55,271 bases of DNA from Clostridia bacterium. GTDB taxonomy: Bacteria > Bacillota > Clostridia > Oscillospirales > Acutalibacteraceae. The position numbers and the translations under genes are program-made. Numbering within the stretch: position 1 is the first letter of the stretch; every line of letters begins with the position of its first letter. The notes below the pieces were generated by a model that saw nothing but the letters and a program-made list of their open reading frames with translations, was not told where the DNA came from and ran no database searches. This document shows positions 2,397-9,192 of the stretch, one piece after another. Location of the stretch: contig JAFQFZ010000012.1 in the NCBI GenBank assembly GCA_017398425.1, positions 1 to 55,271 of the forward strand, in the 5' to 3' direction.

Positions 2397-2472
2397 TGCT
2401 CCTTAGCTCAGTCGGTAGAGCGCATGACTGTTAATCATGATGTCGTCAGTTCGAGCCTGACAGGAGCAGCCA
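2397..2472 (+). tRNA. tRNA-Asn (GTT)
   Basis: Acceptor TGCTCCT/AGGAGCA, anticodon stem ATGA(C)/TCAT with loop containing GTT, T-loop TTCGAGC, discriminator G and encoded CCA. Its G73 complements the variable C of the T-box at 3330-3344. It is a likely substrate of the aspS-gatCAB route encoded just downstream, in which Asp-tRNA(Asn) is made first and then amidated. Confidence 0.95.
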
Positions 2473-2986: not shown

Positions 2987-3163
2987 ATGAAAGTTGCAAT
3001 TATCGGTTCCAGAACATTAACCGTTAAAGACTTATCGTTGTATATACCCGACGACACAGGGGGCAAATCGTATACACTCTATATCTACAACGGAAACACG
3101 GGTGCATTTGAGAAGCAACCATCGCATACTATTCCCAAAATTTCCGTATTGACAAATGCTTAG
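2987..3163 (+). pseudogene. Truncated SLOG-family (DUF2493-like) gene remnant
   Basis: The frame starts MKVAIIGSRTLTVKDLSLYIP, which matches the N-terminal strand and loop of SLOG/DUF2493 nucleotide-binding proteins common in Clostridia. After about 24 residues it diverges into GGKSYTLYIYNGN and stops at 58 residues, so the rest of the Rossmann-like fold is missing. Base composition is lower in GC than neighbouring genes. An internal deletion fusing two coding remnants is the simplest explanation. A real small protein under control of the adjacent XRE regulator cannot be excluded. The intact family has no firmly assigned function. Confidence 0.55.
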
Positions 3164-3176
3164 TATTTGTTATAAT
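3149..3176 (+). promoter_or_regulatory. Promoter of the aspS/gatC-gatA-gatB unit
   Basis: A consensus TTGACA (3149-3154) and TATAAT (3171-3176) with 16-base spacing. Transcription should start near 3183, giving a leader of about 250 bases before aspS. Confidence 0.9.
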
Positions 3177-3182
3177 ACCTTT

Positions 3183-3401
3183 TGGAGACTCGGCTTTTGT
3201 GGAAAGTCTGTCAGGGAGAACGCGTCACCGACTGAAAGCGCGTTTGAGATGAGTAGTAAGCACGGGAACGCTCCGATCGACCGACAACTGCATACAGAAA
3301 AAGAGAGGACGCGTTCGTCGCGTCAAAGCGGGTGGCACCGCGGGTAATTCTTGTTTACTCGTCCCGGGAATATTATGTATATTCCCGGGGCATATTTTTT
3401 T
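3183..3401 (+). promoter_or_regulatory. T-box riboswitch leader of aspS::gatC
   Basis: The leader contains the conserved T-box GGGTGGCACCGCGGG (3330-3344) followed by a perfect 11-base-pair terminator stem (3363-3373 with 3379-3389) and a T run ending at 3401. In T-boxes uncharged tRNA pairs its NCCA end with TGGN and stabilises an antiterminator. Here the variable base is C, which pairs with discriminator G73 as carried by the tRNA-Asn at 2397-2472 (tRNA-Asp usually has G too). The specifier codon could not be placed with confidence. Expression should rise when the cognate tRNA is uncharged. Confidence 0.9.
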
Positions 3402-3434: not shown

Positions 3435-5510
3435 ATGTACAGAACTCTTTATTGCAACGACATTCGTGATGAGCACATCGGCAAGACGATCGAGCTCGCC
3501 GGTTGGGTGGACGTGGTGCGCGACCACGGCGGCGTTATCTTCGTGGACATTCGCGACTATACCGGCGTGACGCAGGTCGTTATCCACGACGAAGCGTTGC
3601 TCAAAAACGTCAACCGCGAGACGGTCATCACCGTCAGCGGCAAGGTGGAAAAGCGCGATCCCGACACCGTTAACGAAAAGATCGCCACGGGCGAAGTGGA
3701 GCTGGTGGCGGACAGCCTGAAGATCCTCGGCAAGAGCCACAACATGTTGCCGTTCGAGGTGAAGGCGTCGCGTCAAAGCAAGGACGAGATCCGCTTGAAA
3801 TATCGCTATCTCGACCTGCGCAACCCCAAAAACCACGACAATCTCGTCAAGCGCTCGCAGATCATCAGTCATCTGCGCAACAAGATGGAAGACAAGGGCT
3901 TCCTCGATATGCAGACCCCCATCCTGACGGCATCGTCGCCCGAAGGCGCGCGTGACTTCCTTGTCCCGAGCCGTAAGCACCCGGGCAAGTTTTATGCGCT
4001 CCCGCAAGCGCCTCAGCAGTTCAAACAATTGCTGATGGTGTCGGGCTTTGACCGCTATTTCCAGGTCGCGCCCTGCTTCCGCGATGAGGACGCGCGTGCC
4101 GACCGCAGCCCCGGCGAGTTCTATCAGCTCGACTTCGAGATGGCGTTTGCGACGCAGGAAGAAGTGCTCGACGTGTGTGAAGACGTGATCTACGACACGT
4201 TCAGATCCTTCTCCGACAAGAAGGTCACCGAAAAGCCGTTCCGCCGCATCACCTATGCCGATGCGATGATGACCTACGGCTCGGACAAACCCGACCTGCG
4301 CAATCCGCTCGTGATCGTCGATCTGACGGCGTTCTTCGGCGGCGTGGATTTCCCCGCGTTCAAGGGTCGCCCCGTGCGCGGTATCGTGGCGGACTGCCGC
4401 GGCAAATCGAAAAAATTCTTTGAAGAATCCCTCAAGTACGCCACTTCCACCGAAGTGGGGCTCGGCGGCCTTGGATATATCACCCTGAAAGACGGCGTGT
4501 TTGCCGGTCCGATCGCGAAGTTTCTCAGCGATGCGCAAAAGGACGAGATCGTAGCGCTCACCGGTGTCAAAGAGGGCGAGACGCTCTTCTTTATCTGCGA
4601 TGACAAGAAGAACGACACCGAAAAGAAAGCGGGTCTCATCCGCACATGGCTTGCGAAGAAAGAACAGCTCGACCTCATCCGTGACGATGCGTTTGAATTC
4701 TGCTTCGTTGTGGACTTTCCGATGTACGAAAACGACGAAGAAACGGGCGAGACCATCTTCACCCACAACCCCTTCTCCATGCCGCAGGGCGGCATGGAAG
4801 CGCTCCTTACCAAGGATCCGACCGAGGTGCTTGCCTACCAATACGACTTGGTGTGCAACGGCATCGAGCTCGCGTCGGGTGCGGTGCGTAACCACGACAT
4901 CGACATCATGAAAAAGGCGTTTGAGATCGCCGGATACACCGAAGACGAACTCAAGAGCCGCTTCAACGCGCTCTACACCGCCTTCCAATACGGCGCACCG
5001 CCTCACGCGGGCATGGCGCCCGGCATCGACCGCATGGTCATGCTGCTCACCGACGAGGAAAAGATCCTCGACGTCATCGCCTTCCCGCTCAACGGCAACG
5101 CGCAGGATCTCCTGCTCGGCGCTCCGAGTGAAGTCACGAACCAACAGCTCGAGGACGTGCATCTGCTCGGCAACGGCAGTGCGCTCGCCAAGCGTGCCGC
5201 CGGTACCTCGTCCGCCAAAGCCGCGGGCGGCAAGCGCTCCACCTTCGCCAACGCGCAACAGCTCAATCAGCTGTCGCTGAGCGAAGACGAGGAAACGGTC
5301 ATGCAGGGCATTTTCGAAGAGATGAAGTCGTATGAAGCGGCGCTCGCGTCCGTGGATACGACCGAGGTCGAAGAGATGGTGCACGTCAATCCGATGCAAA
5401 ATGTTCTTCGTGAGGACGTTCGCCGTCAACCGTTTACGCGTGACAGCCTGCTCGAGGGCGCTCCGGCGCGCAGTGACGACAGCTGGCAAGTGCCGCGACT
5501 TGTGAAGTGA
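3435..5510 (+). CDS. aspS: Aspartyl-tRNA synthetase fused to GatC
   Basis: 691 residues, about 100 longer than a usual bacterial AspRS. Residues 1-105 form the OB-fold anticodon domain; motif 2 (FRDEDARADR) lies near 215-224 and motif 3 (GMAPGIDRM) near 526, with a GAD-type insertion between them. After about residue 575 comes an Ala/Gly/Lys/Ser linker, and from about 604 a GatC domain (QLSLSEDE, a DTTEVEEM segment, VLRED, APARSDDSWQVPRLV). GatC wraps GatA and GatB in the amidotransferase. His31 in RDHGG is the residue found in non-discriminating AspRS; in the Pseudomonas enzyme its change to Leu raises specificity. This fits charging of both tRNA-Asp and tRNA-Asn. The ATG after taggagg is chosen, and gatA follows after 11 bases. 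Confidence 0.93.
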   Translation: MYRTLYCNDIRDEHIGKTIELAGWVDVVRDHGGVIFVDIRDYTGVTQVVIHDEALLKNVNRETVITVSGKVEKRDPDTVNEKIATGEVELVADSLKILGKSHNMLPFEVKASRQSKDEIRLKYRYLDLRNPKNHDNLVKRSQIISHLRNKMEDKGFLDMQTPILTASSPEGARDFLVPSRKHPGKFYALPQAPQQFKQLLMVSGFDRYFQVAPCFRDEDARADRSPGEFYQLDFEMAFATQEEVLDVCEDVIYDTFRSFSDKKVTEKPFRRITYADAMMTYGSDKPDLRNPLVIVDLTAFFGGVDFPAFKGRPVRGIVADCRGKSKKFFEESLKYATSTEVGLGGLGYITLKDGVFAGPIAKFLSDAQKDEIVALTGVKEGETLFFICDDKKNDTEKKAGLIRTWLAKKEQLDLIRDDAFEFCFVVDFPMYENDEETGETIFTHNPFSMPQGGMEALLTKDPTEVLAYQYDLVCNGIELASGAVRNHDIDIMKKAFEIAGYTEDELKSRFNALYTAFQYGAPPHAGMAPGIDRMVMLLTDEEKILDVIAFPLNGNAQDLLLGAPSEVTNQQLEDVHLLGNGSALAKRAAGTSSAKAAGGKRSTFANAQQLNQLSLSEDEETVMQGIFEEMKSYEAALASVDTTEVEEMVHVNPMQNVLREDVRRQPFTRDSLLEGAPARSDDSWQVPRLVK

Positions 5511-5521
5511 GGTGTGTGAAC

Positions 5522-6706
5522 ATGAGTAAATATACCACCATCGTGTGTGAAAACGGAACCGTAGCCGTGGACGATACGCTCCTCGTCAAGGGCGTGTGTG
5601 CGACGGCAGGTTCGCGTATGCTGGAGGGATTCAAGCCCCTCTTTTCCGCCGAGGCGGTCACCCGTCTCGAACAAGCGGGTTACACCGTCAAGGGCAAAAC
5701 GGCGGTCGGTGAATTCGGTCTCGATCTCGTGGGCGAATTCTCGTATGAAGCGCCGCAAGAGGGCACGCTTCACGGTGCCGCCGCCGCGGCGGTCGCCGAG
5801 GGTGACGTCCGCTTGGCGCTCGGCGTCGACATGAACGGCGCACCGCGCCGCGCCGCCGCGCTGGAAGGCATCGACTTCCTCAAACCGACCTACGGCACCG
5901 TGTCGCGCTACGGTGTGATCTCCTGCGCCGCGTCGGGCGAGCAGGTCGGCGTGTACGCGAAGGATGCGCAGGGGGTTGCCGAGGCGATGGCGATTATCGC
6001 CGGTCACGACGACAAGGACGGCACGTCCCTGCCCGAAGCGAGCTATACCTACGACGTCGATCGTCCCGTGGCGGGCATGAAAGTCGCCGTTGTGAAGAAC
6101 CTGCTTGACGCGGCGGACGACGCGGCGAAAGCCAAGACGGAAGCCTATGTGCAGGCGCTTCGCGCCGCCGGCGTGACCGTCGAGGAGATCACCGTCGATG
6201 CGTTCGCGGTTGCCAACACCGCCTGGCAGATTTTGATGACGGCGGAAACCTGCAACAACGTCTCGCGTTACGACGGCGTGAAGTTCGGTCACCGCGCCGC
6301 GAATTACAAAAACATCGACGAGTTGTATGTCAACTCCCGCACCGAGGGCTTCAATTTCCTCACCAAAGCCGTCATCCTCTACGGCTCGGATGTGTTGTCC
6401 AAGAACCGCTACAAGGATTGCTACGACAAATCCTTGCGCGTGCGTCGCGTCATTTCCGAGACGATGGCGAAGCTCTTTGAAACCTATGACGCGCTCGTGA
6501 TGCCCGCTTGCTCGAAGATGAGCTATGAAAGCTACGACATTCACGACGCCTTCAAAACCGTGTTTGACGAAAGCGTGTTCACCGCTGTCCCGAATCTCAT
6601 CGGTACGCCCGCGCTCGTCAGCGGCGGCGTGCAACTGACCGCGAAGATGTATGCGGAAAGCACGTTGCTCAGCTTGGCTCATGCCGTGGAAAAGGAGGGC
6701 AAATAA
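5522..6706 (+). CDS. gatA: GatA-like amidotransferase subunit lacking both catalytic serines
   Basis: 394 residues against about 485 in usual GatA; roughly 50 residues are missing before the catalytic-lysine strand. Family landmarks are clear: MLEGF with GKT and EFG (33-65), KPTYGTVSRYG (121-131), SRYDGVKFG and SRTEGF in the C-terminal half, and a closing VPNLIGTP segment. The amidase Ser-cisSer-Lys triad is broken. Lys23 (LLVKG) remains, but the SSGGS motif reads LHGAA (cis-Ser to Ala87) and DTGGS reads DMNGA (nucleophile to Ala107). Flanking residues align without gaps, so this is not a frameshift. Glutaminase activity should be absent, while a structural role with GatB and GatC remains possible. 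The ATG after gtgaggtgtgtgaac is preferred over an upstream GTG-region start. A functional gatA may exist elsewhere. Confidence 0.9.
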   Translation: MSKYTTIVCENGTVAVDDTLLVKGVCATAGSRMLEGFKPLFSAEAVTRLEQAGYTVKGKTAVGEFGLDLVGEFSYEAPQEGTLHGAAAAAVAEGDVRLALGVDMNGAPRRAAALEGIDFLKPTYGTVSRYGVISCAASGEQVGVYAKDAQGVAEAMAIIAGHDDKDGTSLPEASYTYDVDRPVAGMKVAVVKNLLDAADDAAKAKTEAYVQALRAAGVTVEEITVDAFAVANTAWQILMTAETCNNVSRYDGVKFGHRAANYKNIDELYVNSRTEGFNFLTKAVILYGSDVLSKNRYKDCYDKSLRVRRVISETMAKLFETYDALVMPACSKMSYESYDIHDAFKTVFDESVFTAVPNLIGTPALVSGGVQLTAKMYAESTLLSLAHAVEKEGK

Positions 6707-6707
6707 C

Positions 6708-8132
6708 ATGAAATACGAACTCGTTATCGGCCTCGAGACCCACGTGGAGCTCAGCACCGAATCGAAAATCTTCTGCTCGTGCGGCGGTCACGCGGCGGCG
6801 GACGAACCCAACGATTGCGTCTGCCCGGCGTGCTGCGGTATGCCCGGTATGCTCCCCGTGATGAACAAGCGCGTGGTGGAACTCGCCGTGACGGCGGGCT
6901 TGATGCTCAACTGCCACATCAACCGTTACACCACCTTCGATAAGAAGAACTATTACTATCCCGATCTGCCCTGCGCCTATCAGATCACTCAGCTCAACCA
7001 TCCGATCTGCACCGACGGCTTGGTGCCGGTGAAAACGTCGGAAGGTACGCGTGAGATCCGCATCAAGCAGATCCACATGGAAGAGGATGCCGGCAAGCTC
7101 GTGCACGAGGGCAATCATTCCTACGTCGACTTCAACCGTACCAGCGTGCCGCTCATCGAGATCGTCACCCAGCCCGACTTCCGCAGTGCGGAAGAGGTCG
7201 TGACGTATCTGGCGAAGCTCCGTTCGATGTTCCGTTCGGGCGGTATTTCCGAGTGCCAGGAAGGCGCGATGCGCTGTGACGTCAACATTTCCGTGCGCCC
7301 CGAGGGCAGTGAGGAATTCGGCGTCCGCACCGAGATCAAGAACATGAGCTCGTTCGACGCGATCGAGCGCGCCATTCGCTACGAAGCGCAACGCCACATG
7401 GATGCCTTGGAGTTTGAACTCGAGGAACTCGTGCAGGAGACGCGCCGCTTTGATGAAGTCAGCGGCAAGACGTTTGCCATGCGCAACAAGGAAACCGAAG
7501 CGGACTATCGCTATTTCCCCGATGCGAACCTGATGCCCATCATCATCGACGACGAATGGCTTGAGCAGATCAAAGCGAACAAGCCCGTTGCCGTCGACGA
7601 GAAGGCGGAGGATTACCGCGCGGCAGGCATCGCCGAAAAGGACATCGCGACCCTGCTGTCGAACCACAAGATCGCAAAACTCCTCGACGACACCGTGGCG
7701 CTCGGCTGTGACGAAAAGACCGCCGCTTCGTGGATATTGACCGACTGCGCGGGCATCCTGCGCAAGGACGGCAAGACGTTCGACGATCTGGCGATCACGC
7801 CTGAGAAACTCGCGACCGTCATCAAGTTGGTCGAAGAGGGCAAGATCAACCGCGGCGCGGGCAAAAAGGTGCTCATCGCGGTGGTGGAAAACGACGTCGA
7901 TCCGATCGCCTTCTGCAAGGAACAAGGCCTCGACCGTCAGGTGGATGCCTCGGCGATCGAAGCGGTCATCGACCGTGTGATCGCGGAAAATCCGCGCGCC
8001 ATCGAAGACTTCAAGAACGGCAAAGTCAAAGCCGCTCAGGCGCTGTTCGGCGCTTGCATGCGTGAGCTGAAGGGTGCCGGTGACCCCGCGGTCATCAAGT
8101 CCCTGCTCGACGCGAAGTTGGCTGAGCAATAA
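6708..8132 (+). CDS. gatB: Aspartyl/glutamyl-tRNA amidotransferase subunit B
   Basis: 474 residues, the normal length. GatB binds the mischarged tRNA, phosphorylates the Asp or Glu side chain with ATP and receives ammonia. Visible landmarks are GLETHVELST at the N-terminus, paired cysteines FCSCGG and CVCPACCGMPG for the structural zinc, DKKNYYYPDLP, HMEEDAGKL, NRTSVPLIEIV and RCDVNIS, followed by a helical YqeY-like tail from about residue 330. Nothing in the kinase/transamidase core looks damaged, unlike in GatA. The start is the ATG one base after the gatA stop, with aaaggaggg as ribosome binding site. It is third in the T-box operon. Confidence 0.96.
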   Translation: MKYELVIGLETHVELSTESKIFCSCGGHAAADEPNDCVCPACCGMPGMLPVMNKRVVELAVTAGLMLNCHINRYTTFDKKNYYYPDLPCAYQITQLNHPICTDGLVPVKTSEGTREIRIKQIHMEEDAGKLVHEGNHSYVDFNRTSVPLIEIVTQPDFRSAEEVVTYLAKLRSMFRSGGISECQEGAMRCDVNISVRPEGSEEFGVRTEIKNMSSFDAIERAIRYEAQRHMDALEFELEELVQETRRFDEVSGKTFAMRNKETEADYRYFPDANLMPIIIDDEWLEQIKANKPVAVDEKAEDYRAAGIAEKDIATLLSNHKIAKLLDDTVALGCDEKTAASWILTDCAGILRKDGKTFDDLAITPEKLATVIKLVEEGKINRGAGKKVLIAVVENDVDPIAFCKEQGLDRQVDASAIEAVIDRVIAENPRAIEDFKNGKVKAAQALFGACMRELKGAGDPAVIKSLLDAKLAEQ

Positions 8133-8199: not shown

Positions 8200-9192
8200 A
8201 TGAAAACGATCCTGCTCATTCCCGTCGGCGGCACGATCTGCACCGCCGCCGAAGCGGACGGCACGCGCGCGCTGGTTGACGGTGCGGACATCAAGCTTTG
8301 CGATACGTTTTTGCATTCCGATTCGCCGATGGCATCGTCGGTGCGGTTCAAAACGGCACCCTCGCTTCGGTTGCTCAGCGAAAATATGACGATCGACGGA
8401 TGGAACGCGATGCTCGACACGTTTCGCGCCTACGCGGACGATCCTGCGCTCGACGGTGTGATCGTCGCCCACGGCACGGATACCCTCGCTTTTTCGGCGG
8501 CGATGTTCGCGATGATCCTTAGCGGCTACGACCGCCCCGTGTGTTTTGTCGCGGCGAATGCGCCGCCGGATGATCCGCGCTCCAACGGTCATGACAACTT
8601 CAAAGCGGCGGTGGAAGCGATTTGCGACGGTTTGGCACCGCAGGTGTACGTGCCGTACCGCAACGTGTCCGACGGCGCGATGCATTGGCATCTCGGTGCG
8701 CGTTTGCGGCAATGCCCCGTCTATTCGGAGGATTTTGAAAGCCTCGGAGAGGACATCTTGCCGACGGAGAGGAAACCCCTTTGCGATTGGCGTGGAACCT
8801 GGCATCTGTCCGATCGTGTAAAGCTCATGCACCCCTACGTCGGGCAACGCTACGACGATGTGTCGCTCGACGGATATGCGTCGGTGCTTCACACCACCTA
8901 TCATTCCGGTACGGTCGCGTCCGAAGGCGGCGTGTATGCGCTGACGACCCTGCTTGCGCGCTGTGAAGCGCAGGGCATCGACGTGTGGCTTGCTCCCGCC
9001 AAAGCGACGGGCGACGTGTATGAAACGGTGCGCTCGCTTGTGCAGGGCGCGCATCCCTTGCGTTTTCTCTACGGTTGCACCGTCGAAGCGGCGTATGCGA
9101 AGCTCACTTTGTGCCGTTCGCTCGGGTTCTCGGATGAGGAAACAACGGCATGGATGCAGGCGGACGTCGCCGCGGAATTTGTCGTGTCGTGA
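8200..9192 (+). CDS. Type I asparaginase-like amidohydrolase, possible amide-nitrogen partner of GatCAB
   Basis: 330 residues, the length of cytoplasmic type I asparaginases, which hydrolyse Asn to Asp and ammonia; archaeal GatD uses the same fold to supply ammonia to GatE. Seen here are PVGGTI with Thr12, LSENMT with Ser60 and HGTDT with Thr93/Asp94, matching the two catalytic threonines and the aspartate. The lysine that normally follows in an RGNRTTK-type segment appears as Gln171 (GARLRQ), and the TGSQ segment reads VAAN, so the active site is divergent. The C-terminal half is weakly conserved, with TYHSGT near residue 233. It follows gatB by 67 bases that contain a hairpin. Supplying GatCAB is inference; ordinary asparagine catabolism is the alternative. 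Confidence 0.75.
   Translation: MKTILLIPVGGTICTAAEADGTRALVDGADIKLCDTFLHSDSPMASSVRFKTAPSLRLLSENMTIDGWNAMLDTFRAYADDPALDGVIVAHGTDTLAFSAAMFAMILSGYDRPVCFVAANAPPDDPRSNGHDNFKAAVEAICDGLAPQVYVPYRNVSDGAMHWHLGARLRQCPVYSEDFESLGEDILPTERKPLCDWRGTWHLSDRVKLMHPYVGQRYDDVSLDGYASVLHTTYHSGTVASEGGVYALTTLLARCEAQGIDVWLAPAKATGDVYETVRSLVQGAHPLRFLYGCTVEAAYAKLTLCRSLGFSDEETTAWMQADVAAEFVVS

Follow-up and report, generated by a model that had tools for sequence, protein, structure and literature searches.

In bacteria, the tRNA-dependent amidotransferase GatCAB is described as a glutamine-dependent enzyme whose ammonia comes from the GatA subunit. GatA is also the glutaminase of the Asn transamidosome, and in the archaeal GatDE system an asparaginase-fold protein, GatD, which possesses the full catalytic tetrad, feeds ammonia to a GatB-like subunit. 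The ammonia-dependent enzymes NadE and AsnA amidate their substrates from free ammonia without employing a glutaminase. Here we analyze a gatA homolog, termed pseudo-gatA, encoded between an aspS::gatC fusion and gatB on a stretch of 55,271 nucleotides (the window) from a Clostridia bacterium (GCA_017398425.1, contig JAFQFZ010000012.1). Its product keeps the GatA fold and has lost the catalytic and glutamine-binding residues, and many gut Clostridia appear to make Asn-tRNA via a complex whose ammonia-producing subunit would be dead and nevertheless under selection.

Residues, conservation and selection of pseudo-GatA

The operon of the window consists of three genes in the following order:

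3435..5510, + strand: aspS::gatC fusion, encoding an aspartyl-tRNA synthetase (AspRS) with His in its RDHGG motif, joined to GatC (about 5241-5507); assigned with NCBIfam and Pfam
5522..6706, + strand: pseudo-gatA, GatA fold, catalytic and glutamine-binding residues lost
6708..8132, + strand: gatB, transamidase site conserved, four Cys

As proposed in the first-pass annotation of this DNA, pseudo-gatA is an intact frame between aspS::gatC and gatB, comprising 394 uninterrupted codons from the ATG at 5522 to the TAA at 6704-6706, with GTG at 5507 as a possible alternative start. Its product matches TIGR00132 with 254 bits (E 2e-75), short of the equivalog cut-off of 481.1, and PF01425 with an E value of 1e-53, and the match to the amidase-signature fold of GatA is confident. 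The GatC part of the fusion scores 49.7 bits (cut-off 47.1), and linked gatC and gatB genes, the latter with its conserved site, characterize the locus as a GatCAB operon. The motifs KPTYG, RYDG, and SRTEGF, which had been noticed at first reading, are indeed retained, and the N-terminus is short, as had also been noted; the model covers S. aureus GatA from its residue 40 onward, and the first Met of the frame precedes the column of the catalytic Lys by a median of 16 residues in pseudo-GatAs versus 78 in canonical GatAs.

Residues were tallied in an alignment of 93 distinct pseudo-GatAs, that of the window included, and 30 canonical sequences of the same order; frames of less than 380 amino acids (such as L040, L043, L068, and L120) and identical sequences were excluded. 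The positions concerned, all on the + strand, are:

5570..5572, +: Asp17 replaces the catalytic Lys (yeast K52); D 89 and E 4 of 93, canonical K 30/30
5768..5770, +: Leu83 replaces the cis-Ser (yeast S130); Leu in 85, Ile in 6, Ala in 1, and a gap in 1 of 93, canonical S 30/30
5840..5842, +: Ala107 replaces the nucleophile Ser (yeast S154); Ala in 65, Ser in 23, Thr in 3, Phe and Tyr in 1 each of 93, canonical S 30/30
6359..6361, +: Leu280 replaces the glutamine-site Glu (yeast E330); L 92, F 1 of 93, canonical E 30/30
6371..6373, +: Val284 replaces the Arg holding the glutamine carboxylate (yeast R334); Val in 69, Thr in 16, Ala in 7, and Met in 1 of 93, canonical R 30/30
6572..6574, +: Ser351 replaces the glutamine-holding Asp (yeast D418); no D in 93, canonical D 28/30

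We take the S. aureus equivalents of the first three sites to be K79, S154, and S178. Lys of the Ser-cisSer-Lys triad is lost in 93/93 pseudo-GatAs, the cis-Ser in 92/92 (one gap), and the nucleophile Ser in 70/93, and none of the 93 retains the Glu, Arg, or Asp that would bind glutamine, the Asp column being occupied by S, G, N, A, or L. Recurrence of the Lys, cis-Ser, and glutamine-site losses in 93 distinct sequences rules out chance. Besides, pseudo-GatAs are characterized by sharp and nearly fixed switches, i.e., K to D17, G to D68, Q to R110, D to E140, Y to W235, S to N245, and Y to C300. The cis-Ser was placed by alignment to the 30 canonical sequences, in agreement with the distance of 24 residues between cis-S130 and S154 of the yeast enzyme (PMC4027206). 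E330, R334, and D418 hold glutamine in yeast GatFAB (PMC4027206); Leu280 and Val284 would correspond to E330 and R334 by their 4-residue spacing, and the placement of Ser351 at D418 is likewise putative.

The claim that both catalytic serines are lost therefore stands, since the window carries Leu83 and Ala107 at these sites, the latter confirmed by alignment with the 30 canonical GatAs. Two residues had been misassigned, however. The cis-Ser site is Leu83 and not Ala87, which aligns with the last Ser of SSGGS, a variable position even in canonical GatAs (Ser in 16, Ala in 7, Val in 6, and Cys in 1 of 30), and the catalytic Lys is not kept as Lys23, as its site is Asp17 and the Lys23 column is K in just 17/30 canonical GatAs. 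Regarding conservation among relatives, Ala at site 107 recurs in 65/93 sequences, and the losses of Lys and cis-Ser are general.

Relatives were obtained by a genome scan, of which the best 80 of 150 matches were used. These best 80 are from uncultured isolates, mostly titled Clostridia, Lachnospiraceae, Oscillospiraceae, or other Bacillota, and for at least 56 of them the titles name an animal gut site. When 396 genomes of the same order were drawn (at least 95% completeness requested), 10 besides the window's own genome encoded a pseudo-GatA, with 45-62% identity. AspRS-GatC (mostly as single chain), pseudo-GatA, and GatB are linked across the whole group, contig ends excepted. A tree was built from 49 of the 93 pseudo-GatAs and the 30 canonical ones; in it, a single branch with 100/100 support separates the two groups (the root serves for drawing only). 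In L122, pseudo gatA-gatB is directly followed by a canonical gatA-gatB pair at one locus; L121, titled Methanosarcinaceae archaeon, carries the clostridial operon and is probably mis-binned.

Ratios of nonsynonymous to synonymous substitution rates (dN/dS, NG86) for pseudo-gatA range from 0.03 to 0.19 in 11 hand-picked pairs, and the relaxed selection that might have been suspected is not observed. The same pairs give 0.013-0.08 for gatB, so pseudo-gatA seems somewhat less constrained than gatB. The L068 homolog has an in-frame stop; the other homologous frames examined are nearly all open, save those cut by contig ends.

In GatB, the Lys of the YPDLPK motif (residue 89; S. aureus K88 by count), which possibly lies on the ammonia channel, is replaced by Cys in 80, Ala in 10, and Ser in 2 of 92 pseudo-operon GatBs, whereas it is K in 27/28 canonical GatBs. 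Residues of the transamidase/kinase site, E10, H12, E125, E151, N193, and S195, are conserved; they were matched by spacing to the site residues of the yeast enzyme (PMC4027206), a putative assignment.

AspRS, tRNA(Asn) and genome context

His in the RDHGG motif of AspRS is found in 87/93 pseudo-operon rows by pattern and in 3 more by eye, hence in all 90 readable rows, the other 3 being truncated (this tally, like those for the T-box core and the asparaginase neighbor below, counts a few loci twice). Eighteen further AspRSs stand alone as second copies, 15 in carriers of pseudo-GatA; in these 18, the site is occupied by Leu (17) or Lys (1). We assume that His and Leu at this site mark non-discriminating and discriminating bacterial AspRSs, respectively. 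Upstream of the operon, two RNA features are encoded:

2397..2472, + strand: tRNA-Asn, anticodon GTT (ARAGORN), with U1-A72 as first pair and G73 (pairing read by eye)
3152..3369, + strand: T-box leader upstream of aspS::gatC (RF00230, 42.8 bits, E 4.5e-8; the gathering score of 93 is not reached)

U1-A72 is the pair recognized by bacterial GatCAB (PMC4206432). A T-box core occurs in 70 of the 101 regions preceding aspS, a set that also comprises canonical operons, duplicates, and contig ends. Leaders of the window and its homologs are unusually short, with an atypical stem I and a near-invariant AAC; [GCU]AAC[AG] is present in 62/63 distinct aligned stem-I regions, and the alifold model places it within an internal loop. 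The AAC triplet is likely the Asn specifier of the T-box, a role that is only inferred because stem I is unusual.

Other routes to Asn-tRNA were looked for in 59 carrier genomes, i.e., 50 hand-chosen from the 80 loci plus 9 genomes with G handles; of the 30 omitted loci, L049, L056, and L110 are contigs of genomes already among the latter. Canonical GatA was recognized by eye from profile start and score (in G046 and G075 it is in pieces), and its motifs were read just for G004, G017, and G108. No PF01425 protein beyond pseudo-GatA was found in the window's own genome (1.68 Mb, 79% complete), and the profile search detected no full-length GatA in 34/59 carriers, i.e., the own genome and 33 others, but such a GatA is present in the remaining 25. 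Glutaminyl-tRNA synthetase (glnS) exceeds its cut-off in 48/59 carriers. Of the 34 carriers devoid of full-length GatA, 28 lack an asparaginyl-tRNA synthetase (AsnRS, asnS) over the cut-off, and 25 of these 28 have glnS. Among the 11 carriers without glnS over the cut-off, 8 have full-length GatA (G081 and G083 also glnS pieces); in the remaining three, glnS is in two pieces (G095), has no match at all (G085), or is missing unexplained (G065). Ten carriers are at least 95% complete: 9 are without other GatA, 9 without asnS over the cut-off, and 8 with glnS. Seven of them (G196, G400, G180, G388, G156, G277, and G392) combine glnS with absence of both asnS over the cut-off and other GatA; G420, with asnS, and G046, with canonical GatA in pieces, are exceptions. 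In genomes lacking both, pseudo-GatCAB is the sole route to Asn-tRNA detected by these searches. Incompleteness could account for single genomes, but hardly for all of them.

For G382 (98% complete) and L126, neither glnS, nor asnS over the cut-off, nor canonical GatA was found, leaving pseudo-GatCAB alone, so that the complex may serve tRNA(Gln) too. In G000:C44 (L185), glnS lies near a second frame of the GluRS/GlnRS family, a pairing that recurs in other carriers. The asparagine synthetase AsnB (TIGR01536) exceeds its cut-off in 21/40 carriers searched, a mixed and uninformative distribution.

Ammonia supply of the complex

As the GatA active site is lost and the gene is still under selection, ammonia must have another source; judging from its residues, pseudo-GatA cannot plausibly supply it. 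Quite probably, the complex forms Asn-tRNA using ammonia that does not derive from GatA. That AspRS::GatC, pseudo-GatA, and GatB constitute a tRNA amidotransferase dedicated to Asn, in which GatA is structural and not a glutaminase, seems reasonably probable, and for free ammonium as the source of ammonia we see a slightly better than even chance. Ammonium is abundant in the gut, and free ammonium is the simplest answer and the first choice for ammonia supply. The fused AspRS would charge tRNA(Asn) (U1-A72) with Asp, and GatB would phosphorylate the tRNA-bound Asp and amidate it to Asn-tRNA(Asn). Pseudo-GatA would link GatB with GatC and shape the entry for ammonia, with free ammonium possibly entering by the former glutaminase pocket, where the change from Lys to Asp may have created a putative ammonium site, and proceeding through the old tunnel. 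Yeast GatFAB functions on 20 mM NH4Cl when the glutaminase is bypassed, and in one mutant this NH4Cl-driven activity increased when GatF, the scaffold, was truncated close to the site of GatA (PMC4027206).

Several observations weigh against this interpretation. The nucleophile Ser is kept in 23/93 pseudo-GatAs, albeit accompanied by neither its Lys nor its cis-Ser partner. His-type AspRS is also found in 8/8 canonical-gatA operons examined, and therefore marks the Asn pathway and not a dead GatA. Besides the full-length GatA of 25/59 carriers, AsnRS exceeds the cut-off in 10/59, so the pseudo-GatA complex is not always the sole route. The own genome is incomplete (79%), the carriers are uncultured bins of partial or unstated completeness, and a weak AsnRS-like protein (205-208 bits) is encoded in G063, one of the 25 glnS-bearing genomes without other route, and in G400, one of the seven near-complete ones. 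Finally, a recurrent asparaginase-like neighbor suggests that the ammonia source may not be free ammonium. In the window it is encoded as follows:

8200..9192, + strand: asparaginase-like gene beside gatB; Thr12, Thr93, Asp94, and a GatD-like LSEN kept, Lys of the tetrad absent

This protein might split free Asn into Asp and NH3, both substrates for AspRS::GatCAB, which would amount to a GatD-like logic on a GatCAB scaffold and, together with the complex, would replace AsnRS for the use of free Asn. We consider this unlikely, although it has points in its favor. Its best sequence match in the PDB is GatD (2d6f), and Thr12, Thr93, and Asp94 of the Thr-Thr-Asp-Lys tetrad are retained; the match, however, begins only at GatD residue 95, so that the N-terminal part of GatD is missing, and members of the divergent family do not conserve the Lys of the tetrad. 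As the catalytic tetrad of asparaginases and GatD requires this Lys, its loss renders asparaginase activity doubtful. The LSEN-motif family of asparaginase-fold proteins without conserved Lys includes members from the window, L047, L050, L058, L065, L089, L091, L098, L101, L123, and others. A neighboring frame lies within 3 kb of the operon in 28/99 rows (at least 3 duplicates and one 88-amino-acid fragment among the 28, and at least 4 duplicates among the 99) and in 20/70 rows having 1.5 kb on either side, but at most loci the gene is non-adjacent. An apparent GatB-asparaginase fusion in L067 (a frame of 836 amino acids) is an artefact of a run of N and was discarded. A divergent asparaginase (PF00710 below 150 bits) is present in 0/10 asnS-positive and 42/49 asnS-negative carriers (p 3e-7, uncorrected for kinship), as well as in 26/28 asnS-negative genomes with pseudo-GatA only. 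The same trend holds in 37 control genomes without pseudo-GatA (0/29 asnS-positive, 5/8 asnS-negative), which ties the asparaginase to missing AsnRS rather than to pseudo-GatA itself, weakens the association as proof of an ammonia source, and may mean merely that free Asn is useless without AsnRS.

Asn-tRNA could also arise by another route, either a canonical GatCAB or an AsnRS that is missing or escaped detection, with the pseudo-GatA complex serving another role. The carriers with AsnRS or full-length GatA, weaker AsnRS-like proteins (205-255 bits, 436-463 amino acids) in G063, G098, G099, and G400, and incomplete bins would agree with this, but asnS over the cut-off and other GatA are absent from 25/59 carriers as well as from 7/10 near-complete ones, and His-type AspRS, the AAC of the T-box, and the conserved GatB site indicate Asn-tRNA; we regard this explanation as distinctly improbable. 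A glutaminase that docks on the complex and supplies ammonia in trans, for example a canonical GatA or the domain of some other amidotransferase, might operate in the 25 carriers with full-length GatA, but such a GatA is absent from 34/59 carriers and 9/10 near-complete ones (other glutaminase families were not searched for), and we consider this source quite improbable. It is very improbable that a new amide-hydrolysing site evolved in pseudo-GatA from other residues; the nearly fixed switches, from D17 to C300, could be so interpreted, but the old nucleophile place has no fixed Ser, Cys, or Thr, and the glutamine-binding Glu, Arg, and Asp are lost. A decaying pseudogene or sequencing error, which lost catalytic residues and the stop in L068 could evoke, can practically be dismissed in view of the 93 sequences, the open frames of nearly all other homologs examined (contig-end cuts aside), low dN/dS, clade-wide conservation, and a confident GatA fold.

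Comparison with known amidotransferases

The initial proposal of a fold-keeping GatA probably unable to release ammonia within an intact operon is supported by the fold and residues of the protein, by its conservation across the clade under purifying selection, and by genome context; as far as can be judged from sequence, this proposal emerges stronger despite its two misassigned residues. In the open-licence literature of PMC, covering titles and starts of abstracts, no account of a GatA without catalytic residues was found, and as far as this literature shows, GatCAB with a dead, retained GatA would be a widespread, real, and apparently unreported variant of tRNA-dependent amidation. Whether a GatCAB glutaminase has turned into an ammonium-fed scaffold that, with AspRS::GatC, an Asn T-box, and in part an asparaginase-like partner, forms a glutamine-independent Asn-tRNA factory, the only Asn-tRNA source in many of these cells and, next to GatCAB and GatDE, a third type of tRNA-dependent amidotransferase, is in our judgment evenly balanced. 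If true, tRNA-dependent amidation can be uncoupled from glutamine, translation would be tied to ambient ammonia or free asparagine in the gut, GatA annotations in carrier genomes would overstate the chemistry, and a natural separation-of-function GatCAB would be available for studies of the ammonia tunnel.

With bacterial GatCAB (S. aureus 2df4, A. aeolicus 3h0l), the complex shares the GatA fold, the operon with gatC and gatB, and the GatB transamidase site. In contrast, pseudo-GatA lacks the triad and the glutamine-binding residues and is about 40 residues shorter at its N-terminus, GatC is fused to AspRS, and the canonical GatB Lys is changed to Cys, Ala, or Ser. As in the Asn transamidosome (P. 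aeruginosa 4wj3; 3kfu), AspRS and GatCAB would act on tRNA(Asn), but here AspRS and GatC form a single chain and GatA is without its site. The extra AspRS/GatCAB of C. acetobutylicum is similarly destined for Asn and T-box controlled (Saad 2012, as cited in PMC4206432). Archaeal GatDE has the LSEN motif of GatD in common with the asparaginase-like protein of the window; GatD, however, possesses an N-terminal part, whereas the asparaginase-like protein is devoid of the Lys and the complex described here still has GatA and GatC. NadE and AsnA resemble the proposed complex in their use of free ammonia, but they are not tRNA-dependent and keep no dead glutaminase subunit.
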